A model generated the notes under the pieces. The model was not told where the DNA came from, did not search any database, and was given only the letters and a program-made list of their open reading frames with translations. Positions 13,440 through 42,124 of a DNA stretch of 51,838 bases are shown here, in pieces. This stretch comes from Halarchaeum rubridurum (lineage in GTDB: Archaea; Halobacteriota; Halobacteria; Halobacteriales; Halobacteriaceae): contig NZ_BMOO01000008.1 of assembly GCF_014647115.1 (NCBI RefSeq), positions 1 to 51,838 on the forward strand. The letters are read 5' to 3'. The position numbers were made by a program, and so were the translations under genes. Numbering within the stretch: position 1 is the stretch's first letter; every line of letters begins with the position of its first letter.

Positions 13440-13478
13440 TTAACCAACAAACAAAGAGGTGGAGAAAGTGTTGGTTAA
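13440..13478. promoter_or_regulatory. TTAACCAACA inverted repeat, copy 1
   Basis: Perfect 10-bp arms TTAACCAACA (13440-13449) and TGTTGGTTAA (13469-13478) with a 19-nt spacer. It lies between parA (279 nt upstream of its ATG) and the MNT gene (112 nt upstream of its ATG), and may control either. Same element as at 21298, 23691, 25064 and 42083. Confidence 0.6.
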
Positions 13479-13589
13479 TATTTCGCGGAACGAGGCAGAG
13501 GTTGACGGTAGCAGTCGACGAGAAACTACCGACATCACGACTACTCGTTAGGGCAAGATGCAAGTGAAAATCAACCATCTGGTTGGAAA

Positions 13590-14030
13590 ATGGCGCATCA
13601 AAGTGAGCCGGCTGTCGAAGGCGTGGATCTTGCGGGGATGCGGAAGTACCTCGCCGAGACAGACGTTGATTTTGCGATTCTGTTCGGCTCACACGCCCGA
13701 GGGACGGCAGACGAATCCTCGGATGTCGACATTGCGCTCCGGTTTCCAGAAGACCTGAACGAGCACGATCGGTTCCACCTTCGAAATCGAATCGACGCCG
13801 AGCGCCAAGAGTATGCCGCGAAGTTCGTCGACGTGAGCGATATCGAATCGCTCCCGAATCACGTCGCGTATGCGGCGCTCCGAGACGGGATACTCCTCGC
13901 TGGAGACGAAGACACTCTCGAGACGTACAAAGAGGGAGAGTTAAAGCCGAGTACGAGGCAGGAACCGATGAGCGTGGGCGTGAGCGTCAAGAGTTCATTA
14001 ACTGACTCGCTCAGGGAAACGTCTAGGTGA
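13590..14030 (+). pseudogene. Minimal nucleotidyltransferase (MNT), C-terminus frameshifted
   Basis: The catalytic domain is intact: FAILFGSHARGTADESSDVD carries the GSxARG and DxD motifs of the polymerase-beta-like MNT family, and ALRFPEDLNEHDRFHLR follows. After residue about 113 the frame shifts. In the +2 frame AEYEAGTDERGRERQEFIN, stop, LAQGNV reads as the normal charged MNT tail, while the frame in use gives an unrelated tail. MNT proteins usually act with a HEPN partner as a toxin-antitoxin pair (MntA transfers nucleotides to HepT). No HEPN gene follows; an IS605 fragment sits directly downstream instead. The partner may have been lost on IS insertion. The protein may still fold, as only the tail is affected. 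Confidence 0.65.
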
Positions 14031-14089
14031 CATCCTCCTCGCCGTTCACGGCGAGGCTTCCCGTACCGCAGGTTGGGATATTTGCCGGT

Positions 14090-14519
14090 CTACGACACGA
14101 CCTGTTCTCTCGTTCGAAACGTCCCGCTCTCGCGGTCGAACAGGTATGTCGATGGCTGTGTCGTTCGAAAGGCGCTCCGCGCCTTTCGTGATGTCGTCAG
14201 AACGCGAAGCGTTCTGGCTGCTAACCAGAAGTCTTCGACTTCTGGTGATGACGAGAGACCTCTGGTCTCTCGAACCACCACACAGCCGTTACTCCTATCC
14301 TCACCGTGAGAACTCGGAGTTATCTTCTGGCGCATGTTCTCCGCCCCGTTGCAATCCGCGTTCCCGACTAACCCACACGACGAACACACGTACAAGCCAC
14401 GGTGCTTGCGGTTCGATTTCGTGTCGTCGCCACACTTCGAGCAGGTCTTCGAGGTATCCCACTCGTTCTCCTTCAGCACCTCAACGCCACGTATCTCACC
14501 TTTGTAGTCGAGGTACTGG
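14090..14519 (-). pseudogene. tnpB: TnpB C-terminal fragment (zinc ribbon and tail)
   Basis: About 143 codons. YLDYKGEIRGVEVLKENEWD and TSKTCSKCGDDTKSNRKHRG lead into VCSSCGLVGNADCNGAENM, the four-cysteine zinc ribbon plus the third RuvC-type Asp region of TnpB. The N-terminal two thirds with the first two catalytic acids is gone, so no nuclease activity is expected. The last 60 codons (14160-14275) are made of consecutive DNA palindromes, annotated separately. Confidence 0.7.
14166..14271 (-). ncRNA. Tandem hairpin array at the tnpB 3' end (omega-RNA-like candidate)
   Basis: Four perfect hairpins in 106 bp: 14166-14188 (CGAAAGGCG arm), 14199-14217 (CAGAACGC arm), 14224-14246 (ACCAGAAGT arm) and 14253-14271 (GAGAGACC arm), each with a 3-nt loop. 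The 3' part of IS1341-type tnpB genes in haloarchaea produces sense overlapping RNAs, and TnpB uses a 3'-derived guide RNA. The fragment keeps this RNA region while losing most of the protein. Confidence 0.45.
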
Positions 14520-14739
14520 GGCGACGTACACGGACGCCGAGTTGGAGCGCTCCGTCCTCGAACGCTTCCGCGCCCACGACGCCGTCCAGCGCGGCGAGAT
14601 GCACGGCTCGTGGGTCGTCCGCTACGACGGGAGGGTCTACTGGGCCGACCTCCACTACGGGCAGTTCGTAGAGGAAACCTATGTATCGGGTCCGGACCGT
14701 CGAAATCCGATCGATACGACGCCGTACCGACCCGAGTGA
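14520..14739 (+). pseudogene. 3' end of an unidentified gene cut by the IS605 fragment
   Basis: About 72 codons in frame to a TGA at 14737-14739: YTDAELERSVLERFRAHDAV, GEMHGSWVVRYDGRVYWADL, HYGQFVEETYVSG. Composition and codon use are those of a real haloarchaeal gene (GC at third positions), and the acidic amphipathic start is typical. The N-terminus is missing, replaced by the IS605 fragment. I do not recognise the family. It sits just before the mptG-type operon (convergent). Confidence 0.5.
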
Positions 14740-14799
14740 CCGGTCGAGCGGTGGCGACACCGCGTCGGGAAAAGCGACAAGGCGGCGGCCAACGAGCCC

Positions 14800-15780
14800 T
14801 CACCCGAGGGAGCCGCAGTTCTGCGGAGCGACGATTCGGACATCGCCGGCGACACCGGCACGTTCGAGCGCGCGCTCGCCGGCCGCGCGGGCTGCGGCCC
14901 GCTCGTCGGTAGTCGTGACGCCGTACGCGACCGGCCCCCAGGAGGACTGGCCGGCCCCGGTGATCGCGTCGTCCGCCAGCAGGGTGTCGACGAGCGTCGC
15001 AACAGGTGCACGGTAGACGCCGTCCTGTTCGTCGGCGTACCACGTCCCGTTGAGTCGCCCGATCTCCGTCACGGCGTCGCCGAACGCCGCCGCGTCGCCC
15101 GCTTCGATCGCCGGGAGGACACGACGCGTGACGAGGCCGGCGATCCGATCCGAGACGTCCGGGTCGGCGTCGCCGATCGCCGCGCGCATACTCTTTTGCT
15201 CCGCGTCGCCACAGCGACCGGGGTCGGCCGCCGGAACGACGAGCACGAACCGCCACGCCGGCGGGATGGTGTGGCGGGCGACGACTGGCGGGACCGTCCA
15301 CGTCCCGTCCTCCCCGTCCGTCGCCGTCCCCGTGGGTGTGCCGCAGGCCGGCGTCGGGCGGCCGGCGTCGAGGACGAAGCCACCGTTCTCGATAGCCGCG
15401 ACGCCGATGCCGCTCCGGCGACCGCGGCCGAGGGCGGGCGCACACTCCCGGATGCACGGTTGCGCGTCGTACGTGCGGGCGATGGCCGCGGTCATCGCGA
15501 GTACGGTCGCGGTTCCGCTCCCGAGACCGACGTGCCGGGGGAGCGACTCGTTCAGCTCGACGCGCGCGCCGGGGACGCCGAGGTGGTCGACGATCCGCCG
15601 CACGTCTTCCTCGAACGCGCGCGGACAGTCGATCGTCTCCGCCGCCGTCGCCGTAACCGACACGCGGGGCTTGGCGAGCGCGACGCCGAGACTCCCGTAC
15701 AGCCGTTCGTGCTCGGGCGAGAGGTTCAGGAACCCCATGTGGAGTCGCGCGCCCGTGGAGACGGAGACGCTCTCACCCAT
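14800..15780 (-). CDS. mptG: Beta-ribofuranosylaminobenzene 5'-phosphate synthase (MptG)
   Basis: 326 aa. Beta-RFAP synthase joins PRPP and p-aminobenzoate derivatives with CO2 release, the committing step of tetrahydromethanopterin (H4MPT) synthesis. The sequence shows the GHMP-kinase-like architecture of the family: N-terminal STGARLHMGFLNLSPEHERL, the glycine-rich PRHVGLGSGTATVLAMTAAI, RRSGIGVAAIENGGFVLDAG, and late GAGQSSWGPVAYGV. Length is the family norm. ATG 15780 overlaps the DUF447 stop by 8 nt, so it is the last gene of a four-gene operon. Base composition is clearly above the plasmid average, as for the whole operon. Haloarchaea generally use folate, so a pterin of this type on a plasmid is notable. 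Confidence 0.85.
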   Translation of the reverse strand: MGESVSVSTGARLHMGFLNLSPEHERLYGSLGVALAKPRVSVTATAAETIDCPRAFEEDVRRIVDHLGVPGARVELNESLPRHVGLGSGTATVLAMTAAIARTYDAQPCIRECAPALGRGRRSGIGVAAIENGGFVLDAGRPTPACGTPTGTATDGEDGTWTVPPVVARHTIPPAWRFVLVVPAADPGRCGDAEQKSMRAAIGDADPDVSDRIAGLVTRRVLPAIEAGDAAAFGDAVTEIGRLNGTWYADEQDGVYRAPVATLVDTLLADDAITGAGQSSWGPVAYGVTTTDERAAARAAGERALERAGVAGDVRIVAPQNCGSLG

Positions 15781-16351
15781 CGGACTGTGCCTCCTCGACG
15801 TGCTCGTGCACGCGATCGATGGCGTCGTGCTCCGCCGGGCCGCCACACCGGCGCGCGACCGCAGTCGCGTGGTCCAAGCGACGCCGGAGGACGTCGTCGT
15901 CGTAGGCCTCGACGCCGAGCCGTGACGCCGCGACCGTCGCCTCGACGACGGCCGCGAACCCGCGGTTCGTGAGCGGGACGCGCTCCTCGCCGACCGCGAC
16001 GGCCGTAGGGTGGAGTGCCCACGACGCCCACGGCGTCCCGTCGCGCTTCCCCGCCTCGCGGCGCTCCACGTCGACGCGAACTCGTGCATCGGCGCTCGGG
16101 AGCGCCGACTCGTCGGTTTCGTGCACGCCGAGTGCGGCCTCGACGAAGAGGCGCGCGTCCCGGGTGAAGTGGACGTAGCCGACGCCCGTCCGCTCGAAAT
16201 TGCGGCGCGTCCGCGTGTGGCCCCAGGTCTCCGCGGTGACGACGTCGCCCGCGTGAAGCCCGAGCGCCGCCGCGTTCCACCGCCCGTTCGGGCCCTCCGT
16301 GGTGATGATGCTCTCCGTCACGCCACGCAGCGGAACCGGCCAATCGGTCAT
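15773..16351 (-). CDS. DUF447-family protein, linked to methanopterin-type C1 metabolism
   Basis: 192 aa. VTESIITTEGPNGRWNAAAL and AETWGHTRTRRNFERTGVGY, with VHFTRDARLFVEAALG, match the split-barrel DUF447 family, which has a flavin-reductase-like fold. From memory, members occur in archaea and in the methanopterin gene islands of methylotrophic bacteria; the reaction is unknown. The start (16351) overlaps the CitG-like stop by 4 nt and the end overlaps mptG, so translation is coupled. A role in making or using the pterin cofactor is inferred from that conserved company. Confidence 0.75.
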   Translation of the reverse strand: MTDWPVPLRGVTESIITTEGPNGRWNAAALGLHAGDVVTAETWGHTRTRRNFERTGVGYVHFTRDARLFVEAALGVHETDESALPSADARVRVDVERREAGKRDGTPWASWALHPTAVAVGEERVPLTNRGFAAVVEATVAASRLGVEAYDDDVLRRRLDHATAVARRCGGPAEHDAIDRVHEHVEEAQSDG

Positions 16352-17190
16352 ACGCGGACCCCGCGGGAGAGTGCAACGAACACCGCCGCGGTGGTGATGT
16401 CGGCGGTCGTTCCCGGATTGATCCCCCGATCAACGAGCTCGTCGGCCCACGCGTCGATCGTCGCGCGGTCCGCGTCTTCGAGTGCCGCAGCGCGCTCGCG
16501 CACGCGCTCGGCGACGGCGCTCCCATGTCGGGCGGCGACGTGTCCGTCGGGAGCCTCCGCGAGCAGGCCGAGGAAGGTTCGGGCGATTCGCTCGGGGAGC
16601 GCCGCCGTTCCCGCACACAGCGAGGCCGCGGCGTCGAACGTCCGCTCGAACCCGCTGGCCCACTCGTCGGCGACGCCGTCGGTCGGCGCGCCGGCCGTCA
16701 CGACCGCCGAGAGGGTGAGCCCCCGTGATCGGACGGCCGGGATCGCGTCGGCACCCCGCCGAACGTCGAGGTCGGCGAGCTCCGCCGGGGGGTCGGCGAC
16801 GCCGACGTCGGTGTGGTCGAACGCCCGGTAGAACTGGACGGCGTCGTCCACGGTCGTCGCCTCGGTGACGTCCGTGGCGGCCGCACGCGTCACCTCGTCG
16901 GCGCTCGCGGCCGCGCGGATGAGCGGCGTGAGGAGGAGGAGCGCGCCGAACTGGGTGTTGTCCCGCGCCCGCTCGGCCATGCCGGCGACGGCGGTCTCGA
17001 ACGCCTCACCGACCGGCGCGCCCGCGGCGGCAGCGTCGAGGCCGGGACGGGCACCGACGGCACCGGCGAGGAACTGCTCGAAGCGGAGGTCGTGGTGGTC
17101 GCGCTCGCGATCGACGTTCCCCGGCTTCGGGGCGGCGGCCACATCGAGGAGGAGCGCGAGCTGGGCGTCCCCGGCGACGCCGCGCGTCAC
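16348..17190 (-). CDS. CitG-like triphosphoribosyl-dephospho-CoA synthase family protein
   Basis: 280 aa from GTG 17190, whose start overlaps the Mer-like stop as GTGA. Family motifs: ALLLDVAAAPKPGNVDRERD, FEQFLAGAVGARPG, NTQFGALLLLTPL, and GINPGTTADITTAAVFVAL at the end, all typical of the CitG superfamily. In citrate lyase systems CitG makes the prosthetic group from dephospho-CoA and ATP. In archaea and in methylotroph C1 islands a paralogous form, with no citrate lyase nearby, is thought to work in methanopterin cofactor synthesis. Here the neighbours are Mer-like, DUF447 and MptG, which supports the second role. Confidence 0.75.
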   Translation of the reverse strand: MTRGVAGDAQLALLLDVAAAPKPGNVDRERDHHDLRFEQFLAGAVGARPGLDAAAAGAPVGEAFETAVAGMAERARDNTQFGALLLLTPLIRAAASADEVTRAAATDVTEATTVDDAVQFYRAFDHTDVGVADPPAELADLDVRRGADAIPAVRSRGLTLSAVVTAGAPTDGVADEWASGFERTFDAAASLCAGTAALPERIARTFLGLLAEAPDGHVAARHGSAVAERVRERAAALEDADRATIDAWADELVDRGINPGTTADITTAAVFVALSRGVRV

Positions 17191-18185: not shown

Positions 18186-18357
18186 TTGCGCGCCCCCGCC
18201 TGCGTCCGTGGTTCGGTGATCCCGGAGACCGTTTTTGCGTCCCCGCGCGTCCCGTGTCGGTTCATACCCTTCGGTAACCCGGCCGAGACACAAATAACTA
18301 GTGGGAATAGGCAACGGCAGTATTATTATCAAACAGCATCGCATCGGTGGCGGATGT
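18186..18357. promoter_or_regulatory. Divergent promoter between the pterin operon and metE pair
   Basis: 172 bp, the only AT-rich stretch of the island. TATTATTATCA (18320-18330) lies about 30 nt before ATG 18358, as for a leaderless or near-leaderless transcript rightward. AAATAACTAG (18291-18300) may serve the leftward operon. Shared control of both transcripts is likely but no operator could be named. Confidence 0.4.
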
Positions 18358-20487: not shown

Positions 20488-21003
20488 ATGGCGGCGAACT
20501 TCCAGCAGGTCGCCCCACTACAGACACTCTACGATTATCCAGCCAATCGGTTCGTCACCGAATTCATCGGTGAACCTGCGATGAACGTCCTCTCGGTGGG
20601 CGTCCACGAGCACGACGGCCGCGTCGTCGCCGTACATGACGGAGTCACCCTCACGCTCCCTGACGGAAGCGGCCTCGACGCCGCCACGGGGACGGACTGG
20701 GCGTTCGGTGTCTGCCCCGAGGATGTCTCGATCGCCGGCGCGCTCCCGGGGGATGTCGAGACGTTCACCGCGACGGTCACCGTCCGCGAACCACTCGGCG
20801 AACAGCTCCTGATACACTGCCAGGTCGGCGGCGAGGAACTCCGCGTGAAAGTCCCCCCACGAAGCGAGGTCGCCGTCGGCGAGTCAGTCGAACTTAGTGT
20901 CGACACCGCACGCCTCCATCTCTTCGACGGAATGAGCGGGGACGGATTCTATCACTCGACACCGCACGATGACCCGACCGTCAAGCACGTCGCCGCCGAC
21001 TAA
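20488..21003 (+). pseudogene. ABC transporter ATPase, C-terminal fragment only
   Basis: The open frame begins MAANFQQVAPLQTLYDYPAN, matching the region just after the D-loop and H-loop of sugar-type (MalK/UgpC) ATPases, whose usual form is LQQVAPPQTLYDYPANRFVA. EFIGEPAMNVL and the OB-fold TOBE domain follow to the end. Walker A, signature and Walker B are all missing: the first 200 or so residues are gone. The upstream 90 bp has no in-frame continuation. It is the scar of a sugar transporter operon joined to the end of metE. Confidence 0.7.
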
Positions 21004-21285
21004 TGCGCACCCCATTCCCTCGCCACTGCCAGTAGTAGTAGCGGTTGTCGTTGATTTCTTTGGTGGTGAGCGTCGCTCGCGTCGGAACGTCGTCCGGCAG
21101 CTCGTCGAGACGGCCCCTACTTCATCCTGATCTTCCTCTCCAAGTCGAGCCTCGCGCTCACGGTACTCGGCAAGCGCGTCGGCATAGCGCTCAGCCGCTC
21201 GGAGTTCCTCCGCCGAACAGCCCTCCAGCGATTCGACGAGGTCACGTGAGAGTTCCTGTGGTGGTGTCGGTGGCGAATCGGGCAT
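21004..21285 (-). pseudogene. DUF6788-like gene, frameshifted and truncated copy
   Basis: Paralogue of the gene at 23740. The N-terminal half reads SPPTPPQELSRDLVESLEGC and AAERYADALAEYREREARLG. After DQDE the frame shifts. DELPDDVPTRATLTTKEIND and NRYYYWQWR then continue in another frame, and the last residues (usual KIKSQYKGPV) are lost near 21018. One shift plus loss of the conserved end make it non-functional. Its start lies 13 nt from a TTAACCAACA repeat, as does that of the intact copy. Confidence 0.65.
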
Positions 21286-21297: not shown

Positions 21298-21337
21298 TTA
21301 ACCAACAATTCAGGGGTTGCTTAGGTGTGTTAGTTAA
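21298..21337. promoter_or_regulatory. TTAACCAACA inverted repeat, copy 2 (one mismatch)
   Basis: TTAACCAACA (21298-21307) and TGTTAGTTAA (21328-21337), spacer 20 nt. Placed 13 nt before the broken DUF6788-like start on the minus strand. Confidence 0.55.
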
Positions 21338-21485: not shown

Positions 21486-21653
21486 ATGTCGGAATTTGTC
21501 GTTAAGGCTGCGGTTAAGGACGCACTGTCGGAGAAGAATGTCGCTGGGGATTTCTACGAGGCGCTGGACGAGGAAGTCGAAGAGCTCCTGGAAGAAGCAG
21601 CTGCACGCGCCGAGGCAAATGGACGCAAGACCGTCCAACCGCGCGACCTCTAA
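21486..21653 (+). CDS. Small histone-fold-like protein (DUF1931 type)
   Basis: 55 aa, below the size most gene callers accept, but clearly coding. It reads MSEFVVKAAVKDALSEKNVA, with an acidic central helix (FYEALDEEVEELLEEAAARA) and the end EANGRKTVQPRDL. Helix-loop-long helix-strand-loop with the final RKTVQPRDL (the Arg-Thr pair) is the core of the archaeal histone-fold family and matches small haloarchaeal DUF1931-like proteins. It probably dimerises and may bind DNA. It lies between the DUF6788-like copies and 220 bp from orc1, so a role in the replication region is possible. Confidence 0.8.
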   Translation: MSEFVVKAAVKDALSEKNVAGDFYEALDEEVEELLEEAAARAEANGRKTVQPRDL

Positions 21654-21842: not shown

Positions 21843-21862
21843 AGAGGGGGTATCGGAGTGTA
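21843..21862 (+). promoter_or_regulatory. Origin recognition box-like site 1
   Basis: GAGGGGGTATCGGAGTGTAA, 10 nt after the orc1 stop on the minus strand. The same box recurs at 23219, 23324 and, inverted, at 23652, 24125 and 24173. Confidence 0.55.
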
Positions 21863-21872: not shown

Positions 21873-23126
21873 CTACTCGAGTCGGGTAGTTATCTTACTT
21901 AGCCGGTCGTCATCACCGACCTTATCGATGACTAGGTCTGGGTCAACCGAGAGACTGTACATGTTCGTCATACCACGTCCACGACCTCGGCCACGACGGT
22001 CGCCTTCGAGGATGTTTCCGTGGACAAGGTCGTTGAGTTTCTCCCGGAAGGTCCCTTGTTGATACGTATCCGCACCGATCTGTTTCGTGAAGCGCTTATA
22101 TCGACGATAGAGTTCTGTAGTTCCTTCGGGGGCGTCCCCGGCGCGCTCTGCTTCGAGAACAGTAAGAAGAGCGATCTTCCGCTGCGTCGTCTCACCGCGG
22201 ATGCCTTTCCCGATGGTTTCTTCTTGGATTTCTTCGCGGGCCTCACGGACGTGGGACTCCTCAACAGTGTCACTGCCGTTGTCCAGAGCGAGATCACATG
22301 CGGTCGATAGGAGGTGAATTGCTTGGCGGGCGTCACCGGTGTCTTGCCCAGCAAGCGCAGCACAAAGTGGTATTGCGTCGTCTGAGATTACGTCGCTACG
22401 GAGATGCTCGGAGTCTCTGATACCGTCCTCGAAGTTCGTATCGCGAAGTGCGCGGCATGCGCGTCGGGCAAGGATATCGCGAAGCTGGTTCGCGTTATAT
22501 GGGCTGAAGACGACTTCACGACTCCCTAGCGACGACCGGATGTCCGCGTCGAGATTCTCGTGGAACTGATAGTCGTTCGTAATGCCGATCACACCGATCG
22601 AGACACCGTCGATCGACGCGCGAGGGAGTTCGTAGAGGACGTAGTTGTCCTCTTGGATACCGTCGATCTCGTCGAGGACGATAATAACCATTCCGCCGAT
22701 CGCCCGAAGGTCGTCCGAGAGCATCTCGAACAACTCGACTTTCGTCGGGCCGCGCGGTTTCTCGACCGTCTTGTCGTAGCGGGCTTCGCGAGCCTGCTTG
22801 ACGAGGTCCGCGAGGACGTTCCACGATTTTCCCGCGCCCTTGCAGCTGACCCGAAGGACGGTGAGAGTGACGTCACCCTCCGTATCGGCCCACTCCTGAA
22901 GTTGTTCCGTCTTCAGATTGACCCCGACCGTCTTCCCTTGTCCCGTCGGGCCGTAGACGAGGATATTCCGTGGCGATCCACCGAGGGTAATCGGCCGGAG
23001 AGCAGAGTGAATGCGGGAGAGTTCGTCCTCTCGCTCCGGAAGCTCGGTCGGTTTGTACGTATCCGGCTCCGGGTCGAGGACGTCGACGTCTTCGTAAATC
23101 CCCTGTTCGGCACCGAACGGTTCCAT
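21873..23126 (-). CDS. orc1: Orc1/Cdc6-family replication initiator
   Basis: 417 aa from ATG 23126 (an upstream in-frame start at 23144 is less likely). AAA+ ATPase: Walker A NILVYGPTGQGKTVGVN (about 55-70), Walker B VIIVLDEIDGIQ, sensor-1 GVIGITNDYQF, arginine-finger region SSLGSREVVFSPYNANQLRD, sensor-2 GDARQAIHLLSTA, and a C-terminal winged helix with YRRYKRFTKQIGADTYQQGT that binds origin boxes. It assembles at its own origin and loads MCM. The repeat boxes on both sides of the gene are its probable targets. The GRGRGRGM run just before the end is unusual. Confidence 0.9.
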   Translation of the reverse strand: MEPFGAEQGIYEDVDVLDPEPDTYKPTELPEREDELSRIHSALRPITLGGSPRNILVYGPTGQGKTVGVNLKTEQLQEWADTEGDVTLTVLRVSCKGAGKSWNVLADLVKQAREARYDKTVEKPRGPTKVELFEMLSDDLRAIGGMVIIVLDEIDGIQEDNYVLYELPRASIDGVSIGVIGITNDYQFHENLDADIRSSLGSREVVFSPYNANQLRDILARRACRALRDTNFEDGIRDSEHLRSDVISDDAIPLCAALAGQDTGDARQAIHLLSTACDLALDNGSDTVEESHVREAREEIQEETIGKGIRGETTQRKIALLTVLEAERAGDAPEGTTELYRRYKRFTKQIGADTYQQGTFREKLNDLVHGNILEGDRRGRGRGRGMTNMYSLSVDPDLVIDKVGDDDRLSKITTRLE

Positions 23127-23690: not shown

Positions 23691-23730
23691 TTAACCAACA
23701 GGACTTTCTCCTTGCGATTCTGTTGGTTAA
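23691..23730. promoter_or_regulatory. TTAACCAACA inverted repeat, copy 3
   Basis: Perfect arms TTAACCAACA (23691-23700) and TGTTGGTTAA (23721-23730), spacer 20 nt, ending 9 nt before the ATG of the DUF6788-like gene. A repressor bound here would cover its start. Confidence 0.6.
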
Positions 23731-23739: not shown

Positions 23740-24063
23740 ATGTCGTATTCAGAGCCGACGCCGCCCCAATCTCTCCCGAGCGAACTGGCCGAAACTCTTG
23801 AGGACTGTTCGACCAACGAGCTTCGAGCGGTCGAACGATACGCGGAGGCTCTCGCCGACTATCGCGAGCGGGAAGAACATCTCGCCCAGGAGGACAAGGA
23901 CTCAGTTCAGGAGCGTCCCGAAGAGATGCCCGCGGATGTCCCAACGCGAGCGACGCTCACAATCAAGGAAATAAACGACAACCGCTACTACTACTGGCAG
24001 TGGCGGGAGGGTGACAAAATCAAATCTCAATATAAGGGACCGGTCGATGCCGACGACTCGTGA
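23740..24063 (+). CDS. DUF6788-like small protein
   Basis: 107 aa. The N-terminal half is acidic and helical (LPSELAETLEDCSTNELRAV, YAEALADYREREEHLAQEDK). The end is the family mark NRYYYWQWREGDKIKSQYKG, a beta-hairpin with aromatic residues, common in plasmid and phage small proteins. Function unknown. The gene starts 9 nt after a perfect TTAACCAACA repeat, and a second, broken copy with the same repeat lies on the other side of orc1, in the opposite direction. Origin boxes follow at 24125. Confidence 0.7.
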   Translation: MSYSEPTPPQSLPSELAETLEDCSTNELRAVERYAEALADYREREEHLAQEDKDSVQERPEEMPADVPTRATLTIKEINDNRYYYWQWREGDKIKSQYKGPVDADDS

Positions 24064-24204: not shown

Positions 24205-25011
24205 TCACTCTCGATTTTGAGGCAGTCGGCCATCCGGCCGCGGGACTTGTCCGTGCTTAATCTCGTAGTCGACGCGGCGGAGGTGCTTGCACCCACCATC
24301 GGGTTCTCGCTTCTGGTAGTCCGGACAGGTACACGTCTTGGCGATCACGTCGACGTCGTAGACGCGTCCGGACTGCGAGCAAACTTCGTACTGGCCCCCC
24401 TTCGCGAGGAGTGAGATGGCCATCTCTTCGTCGAGTGCGCGTTGTGTCCGTGCTTCGAGGCCTCCCGTCTGCGCTGGGTCGCTCACGGCTTCGCGAGCTC
24501 GGACGTCGCCCGCACAGCCACCGTTGGGTGCGACCGCTTGTGTGTCTCGTTCGAGGCGCTCGTTGAGTCGGTCCTCGACGGGGTGGCCGAGTGGCCAGCA
24601 GTAGTGGACTTCGCGACGGCTCTGATACTCGTAGGCGCCGACGTCGACGGCGTCGCCCGACCAGACGCGCCACGCGCCGAGCGCACCCATCACGTCGCCG
24701 ACCGCGCGCGGGACGTGTGCGACGTCGTCGGGGTAGAAGACGCGGAATCGCGTGCAGTCCTCTCGGACGGGCATTTCGTCCCACCAAGAGACCGTTGAGC
24801 GCCAGGTGTCCGTCATCGCCGCGTCCCTCCCGTACCCGACAGTTACGTCGACTGCCGGTGAGCGCGGGCCGGCGTCGCCTTCGAGGAGACGAAGGACGGC
24901 ATACCGCAGGTATTCGTGGAGCGAGTTAGCGACGCCGTTCGCGACCGCCGGGTAGTTGTTCGCGACGTGCATCGCTTCCTCTAGGAGCGTCTCGAGATTG
25001 TGTTCGGGCAT
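24205..25011 (-). CDS. SWIM zinc-finger protein
   Basis: 268 aa from ATG 25011. The C-terminus holds a SWIM motif, CTCPDYQKREPDGGCKH (CxCx with a spaced CxH), which binds zinc and often DNA or protein. The N-terminal half contains VEDR-type acidic text and aromatic patches (TVSWWDEMPV, RFRVFYPDDV, VHYCWPLGHP) with no catalytic motif known to me. SWIM proteins on haloarchaeal plasmids commonly lie near orc genes, as here. Upstream sit the shared leader hairpin (25038-25058) and a TTAACCAACA repeat (25064-25105), so it belongs to the same regulated set as the parA region, DUF6788-like and DUF6166-like genes. Confidence 0.75.
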   Translation of the reverse strand: MPEHNLETLLEEAMHVANNYPAVANGVANSLHEYLRYAVLRLLEGDAGPRSPAVDVTVGYGRDAAMTDTWRSTVSWWDEMPVREDCTRFRVFYPDDVAHVPRAVGDVMGALGAWRVWSGDAVDVGAYEYQSRREVHYCWPLGHPVEDRLNERLERDTQAVAPNGGCAGDVRAREAVSDPAQTGGLEARTQRALDEEMAISLLAKGGQYEVCSQSGRVYDVDVIAKTCTCPDYQKREPDGGCKHLRRVDYEIKHGQVPRPDGRLPQNRE

Positions 25012-25063: not shown

Positions 25064-25105
25064 TTAACCAACACTCGCGTCGAAATCGCGCAGACTGTTG
25101 GTTAA
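25064..25105. promoter_or_regulatory. TTAACCAACA inverted repeat, copy 4
   Basis: Perfect arms TTAACCAACA (25064-25073) and TGTTGGTTAA (25096-25105), spacer 22 nt, upstream of the SWIM gene leader (53 nt before its ATG). Confidence 0.6.
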
Positions 25106-31098: not shown

Positions 31099-31647
31099 AT
31101 GGCCCCTCCAGTATCCCGCCGTACGGTGCTTTCCGTTGGTTCCATTGCTGGTCTTAGCTTTCTTGCCGGCTGTCAAGGGTGGGCGAATTCTGCGAGTCCG
31201 AGTAGTTCGGATGAAGCCGAAATCAACCAGGGCGACGACTCCCTTGGACTCGCTTACTCAAAGAGTCATACATCGTTCCCAAGCGAGGAGGAGGCTCACA
31301 GCGGATGGGTCCACATCGTGAGCGACGGTGACTCAGCAGATTTAACGTTTGACGTGCGTCTCTGTGACGAGTTAGGGGAGGTTGAACCAAAGCTGACCCA
31401 TTCCATTGGGAATGAGTTCGTCTTGAGATTCAACGTCACGTCTGGATTCAGTAGCGGAACGTCGTCCAGTAGAACGACCAAGGAATCGCAATGCAGTTCC
31501 GTAACTCACCTTGTCGGTGGAGCAAATGTGCCGAGTGACTGGGAAACGCTCACCGTCGCGGTGAACAACGTCGAAATCCAAACGATCGAGCGGTCAGGAA
31601 CGATGCCAGAACTTCGGCCACTTCCAGACCCAGTACGCCCTCGATAG
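31099..31647 (+). CDS. Tat-exported lipoprotein, unknown function
   Basis: 182 aa. Signal SRRTVLSVGSIAGLSFLAGC has twin arginines and a lipobox, so the mature protein is probably membrane-anchored outside the cell. The rest is beta-rich with a Ser/Glu/Asp-rich linker (SPSSSDEAEINQGDDS) and strand patterns (SGWVHIVSDGDSADLTFDVR, LTVAVNNVEIQTIERS). One Cys pair (C in VRLCDE and SQCSS) could form a disulfide. No family recognised. Confidence 0.6.
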   Translation: MAPPVSRRTVLSVGSIAGLSFLAGCQGWANSASPSSSDEAEINQGDDSLGLAYSKSHTSFPSEEEAHSGWVHIVSDGDSADLTFDVRLCDELGEVEPKLTHSIGNEFVLRFNVTSGFSSGTSSSRTTKESQCSSVTHLVGGANVPSDWETLTVAVNNVEIQTIERSGTMPELRPLPDPVRPR

Positions 31648-31753
31648 ACCCCACCTGTACTGAGTGGTAAGTCCCTCACCTATACCTAACGATGAGCCAG
31701 ACCAGTTCGATTAGTGGCTGAGGCGCTCAAAGCTGACAAACGTTGGATCAGTC

Positions 31754-33111: not shown

Positions 33112-33442
33112 GGATTTGTTCGCGACGACGCGCCTCGTGGGCGCGCCCGCATCCCTCTCCGGGGCCAACAAACCCGATCCGCGAGCCGACCCCTCTCTTG
33201 GGGGTGGCTGATGCTCATCGAACCCTCCTCGTGCTTCTGTCAGCCGGACTGGTAAGGAGGATCGAATCAACTCGTTCGCTGTCCTTAGTCAGACTGTCTG
33301 TCGGAATACGGCAACCCACCGGTGAAGGAGTGTTGTGAGACCGCTTACTGTTGATCAATCCTACGTCGAGCAAGGTGCTGGAGACGCCACTGTCCCATGA
33401 CTTACCCGTGTGGCAGTTGAATACAACCCTACACACCTCAGT
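33112..33442. promoter_or_regulatory. GC-rich hairpin leader (minus strand) and gap
   Basis: On the minus strand GGGTTTGTTGGCCCCGGAGA, then GGGATGCGGGCGCGCC, precedes ATG 33111: stem CCCCGGAGAGGGA plus a second GC stem. Left of 33190 a similar palindrome (ACCCCTCTCTTGGGGGT) repeats. The remainder up to the next plus-strand start (33443) has no gene; AATACAA about 24 nt before ATG 33443 may be its promoter. Confidence 0.45.
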
Positions 33443-33865
33443 ATGCCTCCTGGAGATTCCTCCGAGCAGCAGACGGATGACGTCCACAGTCATCCGCCGA
33501 TTCAGTGTGACGCGTGCGAGTCTGCGCTCCACTCAAACAGCAGTCACACGGTGTCCTTCCTGCTCCTGGATCAGCTTACGCTCCCGCTCGTTGGCTGTGA
33601 TGCCCACCGTGAGCAGTTCACCTCTATCTGTGAATTTACTACCGAGAACACAGCTGAACTCCTAGATTATCGGCCGGCCAGCGGTCTCAATTGTCCCAGC
33701 TGCCATCTCGCACCCCATTCTCCAAACCAATCCGTGGTCCCGGTCCAGGACGGCGCCGTTGGCATCCTTGCTTGTCCAGAACATCAAGCAGAAATCATTG
33801 ATCGGTTCCACACAGGCCTTGCCACGCAACAACAGCTAACGGAATCCCTCAATCCGACACAATAG
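33443..33865 (+). CDS. Small Cys-rich (zinc ribbon-like) protein
   Basis: 140 aa from ATG 33443. IQCDACESALHSNSSHTVSF and LNCPSCHLAPHSPN each hold a CxxC pair, and GCDAHREQF and ACPEHQAEI add further Cys and His, enough for one or two zinc sites. Hydrophobic strands (VSFLLLDQLTLPLV) lie between. No family known to me; similar haloarchaeal proteins with paired CxxC are called hypothetical. Codon use and leaderless-type promoter spacing support it as real. Confidence 0.55.
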   Translation: MPPGDSSEQQTDDVHSHPPIQCDACESALHSNSSHTVSFLLLDQLTLPLVGCDAHREQFTSICEFTTENTAELLDYRPASGLNCPSCHLAPHSPNQSVVPVQDGAVGILACPEHQAEIIDRFHTGLATQQQLTESLNPTQ

Positions 33866-36709: not shown

Positions 36710-37099
36710 ATGAAGAGCACACGGCACGCGACCTACAGCCTCAACTACCACATAGTGTGGGTGTCGAAGTACCGCAACTCGGTACTCGTCAATGGGGTCG
36801 CCGACCGTGTACGAGACATCCTCCACGAAATTGCTGACAACAAGGGCTTAGAGATAATCGACCTGACCGTTCAGCCCGACCACGTTCACCTGTTCGTCAG
36901 TAGTCCACCGAAACACGCCCCATCACTGCTCGCTAACTGGTTCAAGGGTATCAGTTCGCGGAAATACAACCACCGACACGCCGACCATGACGGCGAGAAA
37001 ATCAAGTGGGCACGCGGCTACTACGCAGGAACAGCAGGCCACGTTTCGAGTGAGACTGTCGAAAAGTACATTCAGCGACACGAGGAGGACGAACAGTGA
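36710..37099 (+). CDS. tnpA: TnpA, Y1 HUH transposase of IS200/IS605
   Basis: 129 aa from ATG 36710. HUH motif PDHVHLFVSS (H58 and H60), preceding helices RVRDILHEIADNK, and the catalytic Tyr in SETVEKYIQRHEE (Y120). SLNYHIVWVSKYR at the N-terminus is the family hallmark. It cuts and joins single-stranded DNA ends with subterminal hairpins. The stop overlaps tnpB by 4 nt (GTGA). Confidence 0.9.
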   Translation: MKSTRHATYSLNYHIVWVSKYRNSVLVNGVADRVRDILHEIADNKGLEIIDLTVQPDHVHLFVSSPPKHAPSLLANWFKGISSRKYNHRHADHDGEKIKWARGYYAGTAGHVSSETVEKYIQRHEEDEQ

Positions 37100-38331: not shown

Positions 38332-38400
38332 AACCTTAGGGCCGCGCTCGGCCTGAAATCCCATGGTGGGATTCCCGCGTCTTCAGGCGCGGGAGGAGGT
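38252..38400 (+). ncRNA. Candidate omega-RNA region (tnpB 3' end plus right end)
   Basis: Hairpins at 38252-38269 (GGGACG arm), 38358-38376 (AATCCC arm with CATGG loop) and 38377-38397 (CCCGCG arm) follow in series to the element end. In IS605 systems the guide RNA begins here and reads through the right end into flanking DNA. Confidence 0.45.
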
Positions 38401-38403
38401 CAA

Positions 38404-38434
38404 GGTGGACCTCTGGGTTTGGTGTGTCGCTCAT
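38404..38434 (-). pseudogene. 5' codons of the gene split by IS605
   Basis: Minus strand ATG 38434: MSDTPNPEVH, then the IS right end. The upstream leader CGAGGTTTGTCGAGCCGCCG, GAGCGAGCGG matches the shared GTTTGTC hairpin leader, which supports this as a true start. Continues at 36562. Confidence 0.5.
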
Positions 38435-38568
38435 CAGTGAGAGCTTCCGCTCGCTCCGGCGGCTCGACAAACCTCACGCCGAAGTGAGCTACACCCAGCG
38501 TCCACAACGCAGACGATATATGCCGACTGAACCAAACATATATCTTCTAATGGCTACTACGGGTGTGT

Positions 38569-39123
38569 ATGAGCGAGGAGTCCCCGACGCCCGGCCCGTC
38601 ATCCGACGCGGATAGTGATGCACGAAGCCGGTGGACGGCTGAGCGAACCACCTTCCAGCGCGTCTACGACGTCGTCACGACGCTCTCGTCCTATGAGACT
38701 GTGAGCGAGATCGCCGAGCAGGCAGCGTGTTCGACGGACGGGGCGCGCGACGCACTCACGCAGCTCGTCGAGATGGACATCGTCGAGACACGTGGCAGTC
38801 GCCCGGCCGAATATCGGCGTAACGAGGCGTACTTCCGCTGGAAACGCATCGAAGACCTCGCCCGCGACCACACCCCGAGTGAACTCCGCACCCAGATTGA
38901 CGAGCTCATCGAGGAGGACGAAACACTCCAGGAGCGCTTCGACGCGCCCAGCCCTGCTGCTGTCTCACCCTCCGAGTTCGAGGACGTCGACCACGAGGCG
39001 ATTCACGACCGCTGGGACGCGCTGAATCGCTGGCGGAGCATCCGCCACGATATCGAGGTTCTCCAGCAGGCCGCCCATCGCGCTGAACAGCGCCGAGACA
39101 CCAGCGACACCGCCTCCGCCTGA
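38569..39123 (+). CDS. DUF7342-like winged-helix protein, putative antitoxin (copy 1)
   Basis: 184 aa from ATG 38569 (GTG 38563 in frame). Winged helix at about 30-85: TFQRVYDVVTTLSSYETVSE, IAEQAACSTDGARDALTQLV, EMDIVETRGSRPAEYRRNEA, YFRWKRIEDL. The C-terminal half is helical with acidic residues (SELRTQIDELIEEDETLQER). It precedes by 14 nt a His-rich protein, and the same pair recurs at 50952-51838. Paired small proteins with a wHTH first fit a toxin-antitoxin module. Confidence 0.7.
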   Translation: MSEESPTPGPSSDADSDARSRWTAERTTFQRVYDVVTTLSSYETVSEIAEQAACSTDGARDALTQLVEMDIVETRGSRPAEYRRNEAYFRWKRIEDLARDHTPSELRTQIDELIEEDETLQERFDAPSPAAVSPSEFEDVDHEAIHDRWDALNRWRSIRHDIEVLQQAAHRAEQRRDTSDTASA

Positions 39124-39137
39124 CCCCGCTCTTCTCG

Positions 39138-39575
39138 ATGTCGCCACCGACTCCCGATGACTCGGTCCCGCAGGGCCGTCTCGACACGACGACACTCCGC
39201 ACACTCGGCCGTCGCGCAGCGACGCATCCACTCGTCACCGCGTGGTCCTTCGAACCGACCAGCGCCTCACCTCGCTCTCTCGAGATCACCCTCGACGCGG
39301 ACGCCTACCCAGTGGACGTTGATAGTGTCCGGCTCGAAGTCCACTGGTTCGACACCGACGACTACTACGTCCACTACATCGAGACGCGCGATACCGAGTA
39401 CTACCAGTGTCGGTGGGACCGCCATCCGAAGACGGACGCGCCCCGCAGCCATTTCCACCCGCCGCCGGATGCTGGGACTGCCGTCGAGTCACCACTTGGG
39501 ACGGACGCGCTCGACGTCCTCTTCACCATCCTCGACTGGGTGCGCGAGCGCGTCGAAACGCTGCATGCAGCGTGA
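39138..39575 (+). CDS. TumE-like (DUF6516-like) small protein, putative toxin (copy 1)
   Basis: 145 aa. Strands with VRLEVHWFDTDDYYVHYIET, YYQCRWDRHPKTDAPRSHFH, PPPDAG. The Arg-Trp-Asp with paired His (RWDRHP ... HFHPPPDA) resembles the TumE/DUF6516 toxin pattern, and the copy at 50952 keeps it (RWDRHPSTHNALDHIHP). It follows the DUF7342-like gene by 14 nt. Toxin function is inferred from the pattern and from recurrence of the pair. Confidence 0.5.
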   Translation: MSPPTPDDSVPQGRLDTTTLRTLGRRAATHPLVTAWSFEPTSASPRSLEITLDADAYPVDVDSVRLEVHWFDTDDYYVHYIETRDTEYYQCRWDRHPKTDAPRSHFHPPPDAGTAVESPLGTDALDVLFTILDWVRERVETLHAA

Positions 39576-39660
39576 ACAGACAGCCACTCGCTGATTGACG
39601 CACGTTCTCCAGAGGCGGGGGTGACTCGCACCTCAAAACCGTTCGACGCTACCCAGCTAG

Positions 39661-39924
39661 CTACTCACTCCCAGCCGTGTCGTCGCCCTTCACGGCTGTG
39701 ATGTCCGCCGCGACGTCCCTGACGTGCTGCTGGTGCTGCGCCGATGTCCCGACGTGCTGGGCCGCTTCAAGTTGGTCGTCGACGACCGCGTTCTGCTGGG
39801 GTCCCCAGACCTCTGGTGGCTCAGATTTGATGTACGCCACCCAGCGCTTGACGGCCTTGATGCGTTGCTCACGGTTCCGCTCGTGTTTCTCGTTGAGGGC
39901 CTCTCGCACGTTTGCGTCGCTCAT
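39661..39924 (-). CDS. Small helical hypothetical protein
   Basis: 87 aa from ATG 39924. MSDANVREALNEKHERNREQ, RIKAVKRWVAYIKSEPPEVW, GPQQNAVVDDQLEAAQHVGT. Charged helical N-terminus, then a Gln-rich amphipathic helix. No family known. It has acidic haloarchaeal character and a clear ATG, but the divergent MarR-like gene lies 170 bp away. Confidence 0.5.
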   Translation of the reverse strand: MSDANVREALNEKHERNREQRIKAVKRWVAYIKSEPPEVWGPQQNAVVDDQLEAAQHVGTSAQHQQHVRDVAADITAVKGDDTAGSE

Positions 39925-40095
39925 ATTCGTCCTCCACGTCCAGTTGCGACATCTACTCTTCGAGTCCCTCAAACTAAGACTTTCCTCGAAGCGTGTCGAG
40001 GTGGTTCTCCAGATACTCGACAGTTTGAACGAGCCGAGAGGGGAGCACACCCATTCACCCGCACACTTATCCACCAGCACACCGTACTAGGCGGT

Positions 40096-40518
40096 ATGCC
40101 GATCGATATCGAGGAGTTTGAAGACGGCGAGGAAGCGGAGCGGACGACCGCTGAACTCATCATCGAGTTTCTCCTTGAGAACCGCGATACCGCGTTCACT
40201 CGGAGTGAAATCGCAACCGCGATCGACCGCAATCCGAACACGGTTGGGTCGAACCTCTCACGGCTCAAGGAGAGAGGGCTCGTTCGGCACCGCAAGCACC
40301 ATTGGGCGCTCACCCGTGACCTAAGTCGAGTCGCGGAGGCGATTCGGTTCTCCGATCTCCTCTCGACGCTCACACTTGAGCATGAGCCTCTCATCACGAG
40401 TGAGGAGGAGGCAGAGGCGTGGGCAGACGCCCAACCGACTCAGCCCCATCCCTCGGGGACAGACGATGAGGAACAATCCAGTGGGGGCCGCGCCGCCCAG
40501 CAGTCCTCGGACCACTGA
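40096..40518 (+). CDS. MarR-like winged-helix antitoxin (orphaned)
   Basis: 140 aa. AELIIEFLLENRDTAFTRSE, IATAIDRNPNTVGSNLSRLK, ERGLVRHRKHHWALT is a clear winged helix; the acidic tail (SEEEAEAWADAQPTQ) may bind a toxin. The stop overlaps the ATG of a MazF-like start (TGATG at 40516), the usual antitoxin-toxin arrangement, but that toxin is cut after about 25 codons. Likely an antitoxin left without its partner. Confidence 0.7.
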   Translation: MPIDIEEFEDGEEAERTTAELIIEFLLENRDTAFTRSEIATAIDRNPNTVGSNLSRLKERGLVRHRKHHWALTRDLSRVAEAIRFSDLLSTLTLEHEPLITSEEEAEAWADAQPTQPHPSGTDDEEQSSGGRAAQQSSDH

Positions 40519-40590
40519 TGCAGGCAGCTGGCCGTGACTACCAGCCGGGAGACGTCGTCTGGACGGTCGACCCGTGGCAAGGCCGGCTTA
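40518..40590 (+). pseudogene. MazF/PemK-like toxin, N-terminal stub
   Basis: MQAAGRDYQPGDVVWTVDPW, QGR, then unrelated sequence. DYQPGDVVW and DPWQG match the opening strands of MazF-family mRNA interferases in haloarchaea (GDVVWxPDP-type). Beyond about 40590 the strand is antisense to a PIN gene. The toxin core, including catalytic loops, is missing. Confidence 0.6.
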
Positions 40591-40597
40591 CACCTAG

Positions 40598-40669
40598 TCA
40601 ACTACTCGATCTCGACCGCTGGATTTTCGCAAGCGAGCTTAAGATATTGTTGTCGACGAGCACACTCAC
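40598..40669 (-). pseudogene. PIN-domain toxin (VapC/DUF3368-like), N-terminal stub
   Basis: From GTG 40669: VSVLVDNNILSSLAKIQRSR, SSS, stop. LVDNNILSSLAKI is the first strand and helix of PIN toxins, with the first metal-binding Asp. The start is 7 nt after the UPF0175 stop, the normal place for the toxin of that antitoxin. Only about 23 codons remain, the rest removed where the MazF stub begins. Confidence 0.6.
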
Positions 40670-40675
40670 TCCCCG

Positions 40676-40966
40676 CTATAGGTTTTCGAGGCGCTCGGAC
40701 CGCTCCTCGTCGGTAAGAATAGCGACATCGCGGCTAACGCCGCGGTCGCGGAGAATCTCTTTGAATTCTGCGGGACTGTAGCCGGCGAGTTCGGCAGCAC
40801 GGTTGAGCGAGACGCTTCCGGTCTTGTATTGCTCGACGGCGAGATCGACGCGTAGCTCGGGGCGCTTCTCCAGAAGGGCACGGAATGCTTCCTCGAGGAA
40901 CTCTTCCTCGGAGGCAAACCGTCCTGACTGCTGGAGGAGTTCGATGTTGTCTTCAACGTCGATCAT
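40676..40966 (-). CDS. UPF0175-family antitoxin (orphaned)
   Basis: 96 aa from ATG 40966. SGRFASEEEFLEEAFRALLE, KRPELRVDLAVEQYKTGSVS, LNRAAELAGYSPAEFKEILR, DRGV match UPF0175, the HTH-type partner of PIN toxins. An in-frame ATG at 41002 exists, but TTTATA at about 41007-41012 places transcription start near 40985, favouring 40966. Its toxin (40669) is only a stub. AGTATACGGAGTATTC upstream may be the operator. Confidence 0.7.
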   Translation of the reverse strand: MIDVEDNIELLQQSGRFASEEEFLEEAFRALLEKRPELRVDLAVEQYKTGSVSLNRAAELAGYSPAEFKEILRDRGVSRDVAILTDEERSERLENL

Positions 40967-41063
40967 AGTCTGAATACTCCGTATACTCTCTTGGTGAGCC
41001 ATCCGTATAAAGCCGGAGGTGAACCCCCTGCTTCCGACGGATGCATCCGCCGACGACGGACAT

Positions 41064-41273
41064 TCACTTTGCCCGAAGTTCCGCTGCCTGCTGTGCGAGC
41101 CAGCGGAGGATGGGCTCGCGATTCTGGTGTGCGTTCTCGTAGGCGACGCACGCTTGGACGGTCTGGACGTTGGGAATCGTCACGATGCACGCACGGAGGA
41201 GGTCGAGGTTCTCCGGCGCGAGTCGCTGTTCGGGCGTGAGTGTGTTCGCGTCGTCGCTCTCTGGGTTGGACAT
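41064..41273 (-). CDS. Small hypothetical protein, last gene of a three-gene cluster
   Basis: 69 aa from ATG 41273. PEQRLAPENLDLLRACIVTI, PNVQTVQACVAYENAHQNRE, PILRWLAQQAAELRAK. Helical with one Cys in each of two helices. Unknown family. The GC-rich stem just upstream (CGCCGCGGGCGGGCG, minus strand) resembles but is weaker than the shared leader. Confidence 0.5.
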   Translation of the reverse strand: MSNPESDDANTLTPEQRLAPENLDLLRACIVTIPNVQTVQACVAYENAHQNREPILRWLAQQAAELRAK

Positions 41274-41334
41274 GATGGACGCCTCGCCCGCCCGCGGCGA
41301 CGACAAACGCGACCAGAGGCTTCGATGCTCTCTT

Positions 41335-41598
41335 TTACTCGTCCTCAACCTCGGGTTGGATCTGTCGCACATCGTCGGCGAGCCGGTGCAGATACTCCCG
41401 AAGGATGTCCATGTCCTCACGGGCGTCGGCGAGCGTCTCGGCCTTCACTTTGCCCTTGATTTTGTCTTCGTCGCGCGTTCCGGAACCGCGTTTGAGTTGG
41501 ACGGTGATCGAGACGCCGACGTCGGTACGTTCGACGTGCTGGGTTTCGGTCGGCTGGTCGGCGGTCGCATCGCTCGAAGAATGAGTCGTATCGGACAT
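41335..41598 (-). CDS. DUF7389-like small protein
   Basis: 87 aa. Ser/Thr-rich start, then VGVSITVQLKRGSGTRDEDK and IKGKVKAETLADAREDMDIL, ending REYLHRLADDVRQIQPEVED. This fits the DUF7389 pattern (GTGTRDEDK, VKAET) known from haloarchaeal plasmids and viruses. Function unknown. It lies between the DUF6166-like gene (18 nt) and the 69-aa gene. Confidence 0.65.
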   Translation of the reverse strand: MSDTTHSSSDATADQPTETQHVERTDVGVSITVQLKRGSGTRDEDKIKGKVKAETLADAREDMDILREYLHRLADDVRQIQPEVEDE

Positions 41599-41615
41599 CG
41601 TTGGTGTGAGGTTGG

Positions 41616-41999
41616 CTAGGCAGTCGGTGCGACGTCGTCGGGGAGGACGTGCTCGATATCGGCGTCGGTGAGCATCCAGGTGCCGTCGGCGCCGTACTCG
41701 AGTTGGCCGATGACGTCATCTTTGAACGTCTGATAGTGTTCACGGGCGAGCGCCGCGTTATCCGTGTAGTCGAGGAGGACAGCGAGTGCGAGCTGTGCCG
41801 GGCCACTCCCGCGATAGCCGACGGCGAAGCCGCTCGGACTATGCCGGGCAATTCGGAGGCTACGCTCCGGCGTGAGGCGCTCCCCACCAGGGTGCGTCGT
41901 CACGACCGTCTCGCCCTGCTCCCGGGAGCCGACGTAGCGAGTCTCGCCCTCTTGGTGTGTAGTCTGTGCCGTCGCGTGGTCGTTGAAGGTGCCACTCAT
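41616..41999 (-). CDS. DUF6166-like small protein
   Basis: 127 aa from ATG 41999. RYVGSREQGETVVTTHPGGE, RLTPERSLRIARHSPSGFAV, GYRGSGPAQLALAVLLDYTD, REHYQTFKDDVIGQLEYGAD match the DUF6166 pattern (GYxGxGPxQLALALL). Common in plasmid regions; function unknown. The shared hairpin leader (42036-42060) and a perfect TTAACCAACA repeat (42083-42124) lie upstream, so it is part of the regulated set. Confidence 0.75.
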   Translation of the reverse strand: MSGTFNDHATAQTTHQEGETRYVGSREQGETVVTTHPGGERLTPERSLRIARHSPSGFAVGYRGSGPAQLALAVLLDYTDNAALAREHYQTFKDDVIGQLEYGADGTWMLTDADIEHVLPDDVAPTA

Positions 42000-42062
42000 C
42001 GTTCGGTGCGAGAGCACCACTCAGGCACTCCCGCACCCCTCTCGGGGGCGACAAACACGACG
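42000..42062 (-). promoter_or_regulatory. GC-rich hairpin leader of the DUF6166-like gene
   Basis: Minus strand TCGTGTTTGTCGCCCCCGAG, AGGGGTGCGGGAG: CCCC-GAGA-GGGG stem then TGCGGGAG ... CTCTCGCA as a second stem, ending 4 nt before ATG 41999. The best-formed example of the shared leader. Confidence 0.5.
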
Positions 42063-42082
42063 GTGGTCGCGACCTATCCAGT

Positions 42083-42124
42083 TTAACCAACACAGTTCTG
42101 GTTCTACTCCTCATTGTTGGTTAA
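42083..42124. promoter_or_regulatory. TTAACCAACA inverted repeat, copy 5
   Basis: Perfect arms TTAACCAACA (42083-42092) and TGTTGGTTAA (42115-42124), spacer 22 nt, 84 nt upstream of the DUF6166-like ATG. Confidence 0.6.

Follow-up and report, generated by a model that had tools for sequence, protein, structure and literature searches.

A paired DNA signal widespread on the plasmids and viruses of haloarchaea, and PSP, a small DUF6788 relative proposed to read it

What reads an inverted repeat that stands at unrelated genes of a single haloarchaeal replicon? The repeat, in which the arms TTAACCAACA and TGTTGGTTAA flank a short spacer, occurs five times in a contig of Halarchaeum rubridurum (NZ_BMOO01000008.1, positions 1 to 51,838; this whole stretch of 51,838 nucleotides [nt] is called the window hereafter). 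An earlier, sequence-only reading of this DNA took the five copies to suggest a plasmid-wide regulon bound by one dimeric or tetrameric protein. One copy stands directly before the gene of PSP (23740..24063, plus strand), a 107-amino-acid (aa) divergent relative of the DUF6788 family. Its sequence relatives and the co-variation of protein and repeat described below lead us to propose, with a probability of about 0.73, that PSP is the binder of the repeats and regulates its own gene.

The repeat in the window and across haloarchaea

A scan recovered the five pairs of the sequence-only reading, four of them perfect and one with a single mismatch, with spacers of 19, 20, 20, 22 and 22 nt and no assigned strand. 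The TTAACCAACA-N19-TGTTGGTTAA copy (13440..13478) separates the divergent parA and nucleotidyltransferase genes, 111 nt from the start of the latter and 302 nt from the ParA start. The mismatched N20 copy (21298..21337) is found 12 nt upstream of a frameshifted copy of the PSP gene, and a perfect N20 copy (23691..23730), the proposed operator, ends 9 nt before the ATG of the intact gene; both distances fall within the 9 to 13 nt given earlier for the two genes. The N22 copies are located 52 nt upstream of a gene with a SWIM motif (25064..25105) and 83 nt upstream of a DUF6166 gene (42083..42124). Comparison with shuffled sequence, suggested earlier as a check, placed the window far above chance. 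It contains 10 arm matches with at most one mismatch (mean of 0.59 and maximum of 3 in 100 shuffles) and four perfect pairs, versus none in 100 shuffled windows. Including these four, the source genome has 19 perfect pairs spread over five contigs, and a reversed control gave none.

The scan beyond the window, likewise suggested with the earlier reading, found the motif on replicons across the whole class. Of the 391 genomes sampled from the class Halobacteria, 259, representing 67 of 86 genera, had the perfect pair TTAACCAACA-N(15-26)-TGTTGGTTAA, as did 20 of 26 genomes of the family; the reversed pattern was absent from every one of the 391. With spacers of 18 to 24 nt, at least 117 stretches of named genome contigs carried the pair. 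Among the matches listed (80 loci), 77 were haloarchaeal by name, one was assigned to "uncultured archaeon A07HR67" and two came from bacterial metagenome-assembled genomes (MAGs; L140 and L177), which we estimate to be about the number expected by chance in 257 Gb. The L177 locus contains two pairs 78 bp apart. A further 50 stretches with the pair were found in viral contigs. The spacer was 21 or 22 nt long in 206 of 252 distinct sites, placing the arm centers 31 to 32 bp apart, so the earlier description of a single motif with helical-turn spacing held. A single dimeric or tetrameric binder is consistent with this motif, its spacing and its spread, and the binding itself is a proposal. The open-access collection searched returned no paper containing an arm together with the word haloarchaea, although an earlier mention in papers on phiH or phiCh1 is possible. 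Judged by sequence, this paired signal is widespread on haloarchaeal plasmids and viruses and exists in several spellings.

PSP and the repeat in front of its gene

The signal and PSP occur together. A perfect site was found in 206 of the 208 genomes encoding a close PSP (E value of 1e-30 or better), as opposed to 53 of the 183 other genomes, and the genomes with a close PSP contain 1,685 of all 1,800 sites. In the first of the two genomes lacking a perfect site, the PSP gene that was read has lost its start codon and one arm base; the second has a site with one changed arm end. The window protein matched 210 plasmid records by tblastn, the ten commonest named genera being haloarchaeal, and was found in 293 of the 391 genomes; DUF6788 relatives were found in another search in 43 plasmid records. 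DUF6788-like PSPs are also the largest site-adjacent family, with 43 genes, 40 of which start downstream of the site, mostly 9 to 20 nt away.

A perfect repeat was located within 130 nt upstream of 63 out of 70 distinct PSP genes, a set that includes loci picked by their site, and a repeat with one mismatch preceded 3 more. We also examined 80 distinct genes from loci chosen by protein, part of them from genomes earlier selected for C-type sites; from this count, as from the listing of relatives, domains without a placeable start were dropped. The upstream repeat scored above all 40 shuffles in 56 of these genes. The remaining 24 comprised nine members of a subfamily with a different C terminus and no repeat, seven genes with a weaker, recognizable copy (reached by 1 or 2 of 40 shuffles), two in which an arm was lost or the repeat cut off, one with the repeat before the upstream gene, two decayed genes and three with none. 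On pNRC200 (L228), the left arm of the PSP operator is gone. On pHLAC01 (L232), a perfect repeat lies about 1.1 kb upstream, separated from PSP by the ISHla12 transposase gene.

The spacer of W-type PSP operators usually begins with AAACTATGG or a similar sequence. The pattern [CT]TA[AT][GTA] occurred within the first 11 spacer nt of 54 out of 76 such operators; of 214 other sites, 5 had it on one strand and 4 on the other. By these sequence signals, the W-type operator overlaps the putative core promoter of the PSP gene. A mapped transcript points to the same arrangement in phage phiH1, where start T8 maps to 31672, within the right arm of a repeat that spans 31630-31679, and an AT-rich stretch, GATTTAATAG, is found in the spacer, 20 to 29 nt upstream of that start; the phiH1 DUF6788 gene is the second gene downstream. 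With transcription beginning within this arm, the repeat is more likely to act as DNA than as an RNA hairpin.

The relationship of PSP to DUF6788 is indirect. Against Pfam, the window protein gave no DUF6788 (PF20586) match and only Terminase_4 at an E value of 0.037. A two-round profile built from query A1 retrieved the L186 protein (5.3e-10) and an open reading frame (ORF) of phiCh1 (4.8e-7), and the L186 protein in turn matched the DUF6788 model with 37.7 bits against a cutoff of 27.2 (E value of 2.4e-9); the phiH1 protein stayed under the model cutoff (E value of 3.7e-5). The HGPY subfamily fits the Pfam model and is reached by the profile grown from PSP, whereas the window PSP misses the model and is without the Cys/HGPY motif. 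The window protein is, on these profile matches, a homolog of DUF6788 through intermediate sequences. The earlier label "DUF6788-like" is therefore retained by way of these relatives, though Pfam makes no such call for the intact protein. Of the two genes to which it was applied, only that at 23740-24063 is intact; the other (20884..21285, minus strand) is the remnant of a second PSP gene, whose product belongs to the family in its N-terminal half and leaves it about half way, after a frameshift. In phiCh1, a DUF6788-type ORF is found at 33244-33582 on the minus strand of NC_004084 (L310), right behind an inverted repeat with arms of 13 to 14 bp; it is unannotated there and annotated as uncharacterized in MK450543 and NC_054954. 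The phiH1 and ChaoS9 genome papers give locus tags for the virus homologs, and the phiH1 gene is described there as uncharacterized (PMC6210493, PMC6471424). No paper in the open-access collection searched mentions DUF6788.

Diverged subfamilies of PSP/DUF6788 are preceded by repeats of like geometry with other half-sites, mostly of the form TTANNNNACA. Arms spelled CTAACCAACA stand before 13 genes, the product of every one ending in Y[VI][AG]PV. In another subfamily, TTACCCCACA arms precede two genes, the end being changed in one of them. Genes of HGPY-type DUF6788 proteins have the arms TTATGTAACA, TTGTGTAACA, TTACCAAACA, TTACCTAACA or TTATCAAACA, or near variants; the L186 DUF6788 gene also has an upstream repeat. 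Among 14 DUF6788 genes with a scored repeat, 11 exceeded all 100 shuffles, while the scores of L477, L478 and L482 were reached by 6, 4 and 1 of 100, respectively. No repeat was found upstream of nine members of the subfamily with a shorter, different C terminus, and several of these repeat-less genes belong to contig 1 of their assembly, which is probably the chromosome. Sites spelled CTAACCAACA, with A or G accepted as the final base of the arm, are dispersed in 31 of the 391 genomes, with up to 15 sites each and none in the reversed control.

To quantify this pattern, we compared protein distance with half-site distance for 53 non-redundant genes, retained out of 103 after two frameshifted genes were dropped. 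The rank correlation (rho) was 0.81 for the whole protein, 0.84 for its C-terminal part and 0.65 for its N-terminal part, and in each of the three versions none of 2,000 permutations reached the observed value. Across this set, the predicted operator spelling co-varies with the version of PSP. Such matching of spelling and protein suggests that PSP may read the signal and thereby regulate its own gene, perhaps also the plasmid as a whole.

Remote sites and the weighing of explanations

Linkage between gene and operator contributes to the correlation, and sites unlinked to the PSP gene therefore matter. On Haloquadratum PL100, 10 sites were detected, counting the operator, and all 10 are spelled like the repeat of the resident DUF6788 gene (at most two mismatches, seven spellings tried); shuffled records gave none. 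The own operator is likewise counted in phiCh1 and phiH1, where 3 of 3 sites each are of the TTATCAAACA type with at most two mismatches (50 of 58.5 kb and 18 of 58 kb read, respectively), and in ChaoS9, a relative of these two viruses with its own W-type PSP, where 3 of 3 sites are TTAACCAACA. Two plasmids were fetched after the rule had been formed. On pJCM16430-01, 5 of 6 sites, the operator among them, have the plasmid's own spelling, three of them with one base changed, and a Halocatena plasmid has its own operator only. Two own-spelling sites were found on pKBTZ03_58 (50 of 58.6 kb read), and pHSR-CO has its own operator and one site with two mismatches. In Haloarcula marismortui, the contig that matches pNG600 carries 8 T-type sites and none of the C type, whereas C-type sites are found on other contigs. 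Of the other two phiH1 repeats, one precedes parA, about 50 nt ahead of its mapped start T7, and the third is in the convergent gap where repH and imm end, at a distance from any mapped promoter of these two genes. One of the three phiCh1 repeats is before parA and one is in a convergent gap.

Several observations weigh against PSP as the reader, above all the sole reader, of the signal. Shared descent makes up part of the Mantel signal, since each operator is linked to its gene. The sixth site of pJCM16430-01 is TTAACCAACA, foreign to its known PSP, and pKBTZ03_58 also carries one foreign TTAACCAACA site. On ten contigs of six multi-replicon genomes (excluding G119, which is a single large contig, and a contig that has a third type of PSP), remote sites matched the local PSP type in 24 of 38 cases (12:7 versus 7:12; P = 0.19). 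This same-contig tendency is weak, perhaps because a single base distinguishes the two spellings and a cell contains several PSPs. The 53 genomes that have sites and no close PSP count on the same side, as do 40 of 42 site-bearing viral contigs, many of them fragments, in which neither the PSP nor the DUF6788 query found a match. Four further genes of the Y[VI][AG]PV type (L406, L411, L412 and L434) had no repeat in the stretches inspected. Two predicted structure models (mean pLDDT of 78 and 66) matched no known fold, with best Foldseek E values of 0.72 and 0.90.

The placement of sites speaks to what the binder might do. Genes were called with a simple purpose-made gene caller, and sites with an unknown neighbor were dropped; the figures are rough because this caller misses some small genes. 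Out of 230 sites with known neighbors, 216 were intergenic, as opposed to 27.6% of random positions in the same loci. Starts lay within 120 nt downstream of 107 of the 216 (random positions, 33.5%). Once the 39 PSP starts within this distance are removed, about 68 of 177 (38%) remain, near the random figure, assuming that all 39 are among the 216. Convergent gaps held 43 of the 216 (19.9%, versus 19.2% of random intergenic positions). The plasmid-wide regulon of the sequence-only reading is borne out in its shared motif over replicons, whereas its excess near starts comes mostly from PSP genes. With remote sites little enriched at promoters without PSP genes and convergent gaps not depleted, a pure regulon is not established. 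The sequence-only reading also missed that the DUF6788-like gene probably encodes the regulator, and that different versions of this protein go with different half-site spellings.

The same placement speaks for a live, though less probable, alternative: the repeats would be dispersed centromere-like or replicon-organizing sites, and PSP mainly a partition or DNA-folding protein, as in ParB/parS, with its own operator serving feedback control. Remote sites are intergenic without avoiding convergent gaps, half-sites are often replicon specific, the phiCh1 and phiH1 sets each include one repeat before parA and one in a convergent gap, and 5 of 6 named plasmids have an orc/cdc6 gene no more than 6 kb from PSP. 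However, parA is that close in just 2 of the 6, and the sites are single and scattered. Several also keep fixed distances before particular genes (82 to 83 nt in 13 of 15 cases, 49 to 52 nt in 7 of 8), though common descent could explain these.

We consider it unlikely that the repeats form a plasmid-wide transcription regulon with a binder other than PSP, such as a conserved host regulator or a divergent MarR-type protein. Exact arms in 67 of 86 genera and the viral contigs with sites in which the PSP search found none would fit such a factor. Viral-contig searches with the window protein found no relative, query A1 found ChaoS9 and query A2 two contigs. A single host factor would not, however, account for several spellings following PSP subfamilies. 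Where the MarR-type gene adjoins the site, it starts 82 to 83 nt away in 13 of 15 cases. Its own TATA-like element, however, is placed some 50 nt past the site, and the annotations of the retrieved DUF6788 loci show no divergent gene of this type immediately before the DUF6788 gene. That SWIM-motif proteins are the binders is very improbable. On plasmids, the SWIM gene has the repeat 49 to 52 nt upstream in 7 of 8 downstream cases, and by our reading of the regular-expression matches a SWIM-type motif is present in proteins of 10 out of 13 viral elements with sites, but Humcor1 encodes such a protein and no site was found in it with up to five mismatches. No universal family emerged from a search for a protein common to 13 viral and 4 plasmid site-bearing elements, the widest being present in 10 of 17.

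If PSP is the binder, a dimer or a dimer of dimers would occupy both half-sites, which are about three helical turns apart and so on one face of the DNA. At its own operator it would cover the TATA region and the start site and so limit its own synthesis. Bound at remote sites, it may modulate some nearby promoters and would probably also organize, silence or help maintain the replicon, while different half-site spellings would keep co-resident replicons apart. A broader and decidedly speculative version sees in the DUF6788/PSP family a replicon-identity code of haloarchaeal plasmids and viruses. A nearly constant TTA....ACA frame with variable middle letters would be read by a protein that binds DNA through a new fold, and the scattered sites would mark the replicon for its own maintenance, segregation or silencing and set incompatibility between co-resident replicons. 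If PSP does read the signal, uncharacterized proteins on many plasmids and in the model haloviruses phiH1, phiCh1 and ChaoS9 would gain a function and a target sequence. The control, stability and incompatibility of haloarchaeal megaplasmids would become open to direct testing, and a natural set of protein/half-site pairs would be at hand for reading the recognition code.

Neighboring genes and known systems

The remaining site-linked genes of the window encode a ParA-type ATPase (12370..13137, minus strand; PF13614, E value of 1.9e-34), an MNT-type nucleotidyltransferase (13590..14030, plus strand; PF18765 and PF01909), a protein whose C terminus shows the CxCx(n)CxH pattern of a SWIM-type motif (24205..25011, minus strand; found by regular expression, with no Pfam match at 0.001) and a DUF6166 protein (41616..41999, minus strand; PF19663, E value of 3.5e-25). 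A short DUF1931/histone-fold gene adjoins a site both in the window (21486-21653) and on pJCM16430-01 (L490, 24695-24862). The leaders of site-linked genes in L017, L118 (SWIM), L029 (333 aa) and L024 (presumably a TFB-like gene) show a T-run followed by a GC-rich, hairpin-like stretch, e.g., CCCCTGA..GGGTGCGGGG. Pattern scans of viral contigs with other spellings yielded 20 stretches for TTATCNAACA, 6 for CTAACCAACA and 1 for TTACCCCACA, chance matches likely being among them. On viral contig L098, a stretch of 2.4 kb holds three repeats of the GTTACCCCAC type, next to a single TTAACCAACA site.

A Cdc6/Orc1 replication protein (Cdc6_lid and Cdc6_C domains) is encoded at 21873..23126 on the minus strand. 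Repeats of the form TTTACACTCYGATNCCCCC, which we take from their resemblance to be origin recognition boxes (ORBs), surround its gene at 21846, 23325, 23652, 24125 and 24173, and the PSP gene is among them. This region, with its five ORB-like repeats, is likely a replication origin that has the PSP gene inside it.

ParB/parS and the RepB/parS of repABC replicons combine replicon-specific palindromic sites with an autoregulated small DNA-binding protein in the replication region and more copies of the site on the replicon, and the proposed PSP system resembles them in these respects. It differs in that PSP is archaeal, has no detected ParB or helix-turn-helix (HTH) domain and apparently no fixed ParA neighbor, and its half-sites are about three helical turns apart. 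The ORBs of Orc1/Cdc6 are likewise repeated intergenic elements near cdc6, but the arms have another sequence and also occur away from cdc6; as ORBs they were ruled out by their difference from the ORB-like repeats of the window. A recombination or integron-type site is presumably disfavored by the spacer of about 21 nt and the lack of a core consensus. Two other candidates were rejected on the parts of the papers available: the HF2 intergenic repeats (PMC8707807) have different sequences, and the G-rich repeat of Haloarcula hispanica oriC1 (PMC3936714) is a different element. Phage repressor-operator systems such as phiH RepR (PMC6210493, PMC6471424) share with PSP the lysogeny/replication region and an operator over the own promoter. 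RepR is another gene, however, and PSP is without a recognized HTH and has its sites also on large plasmids and in convergent gaps.

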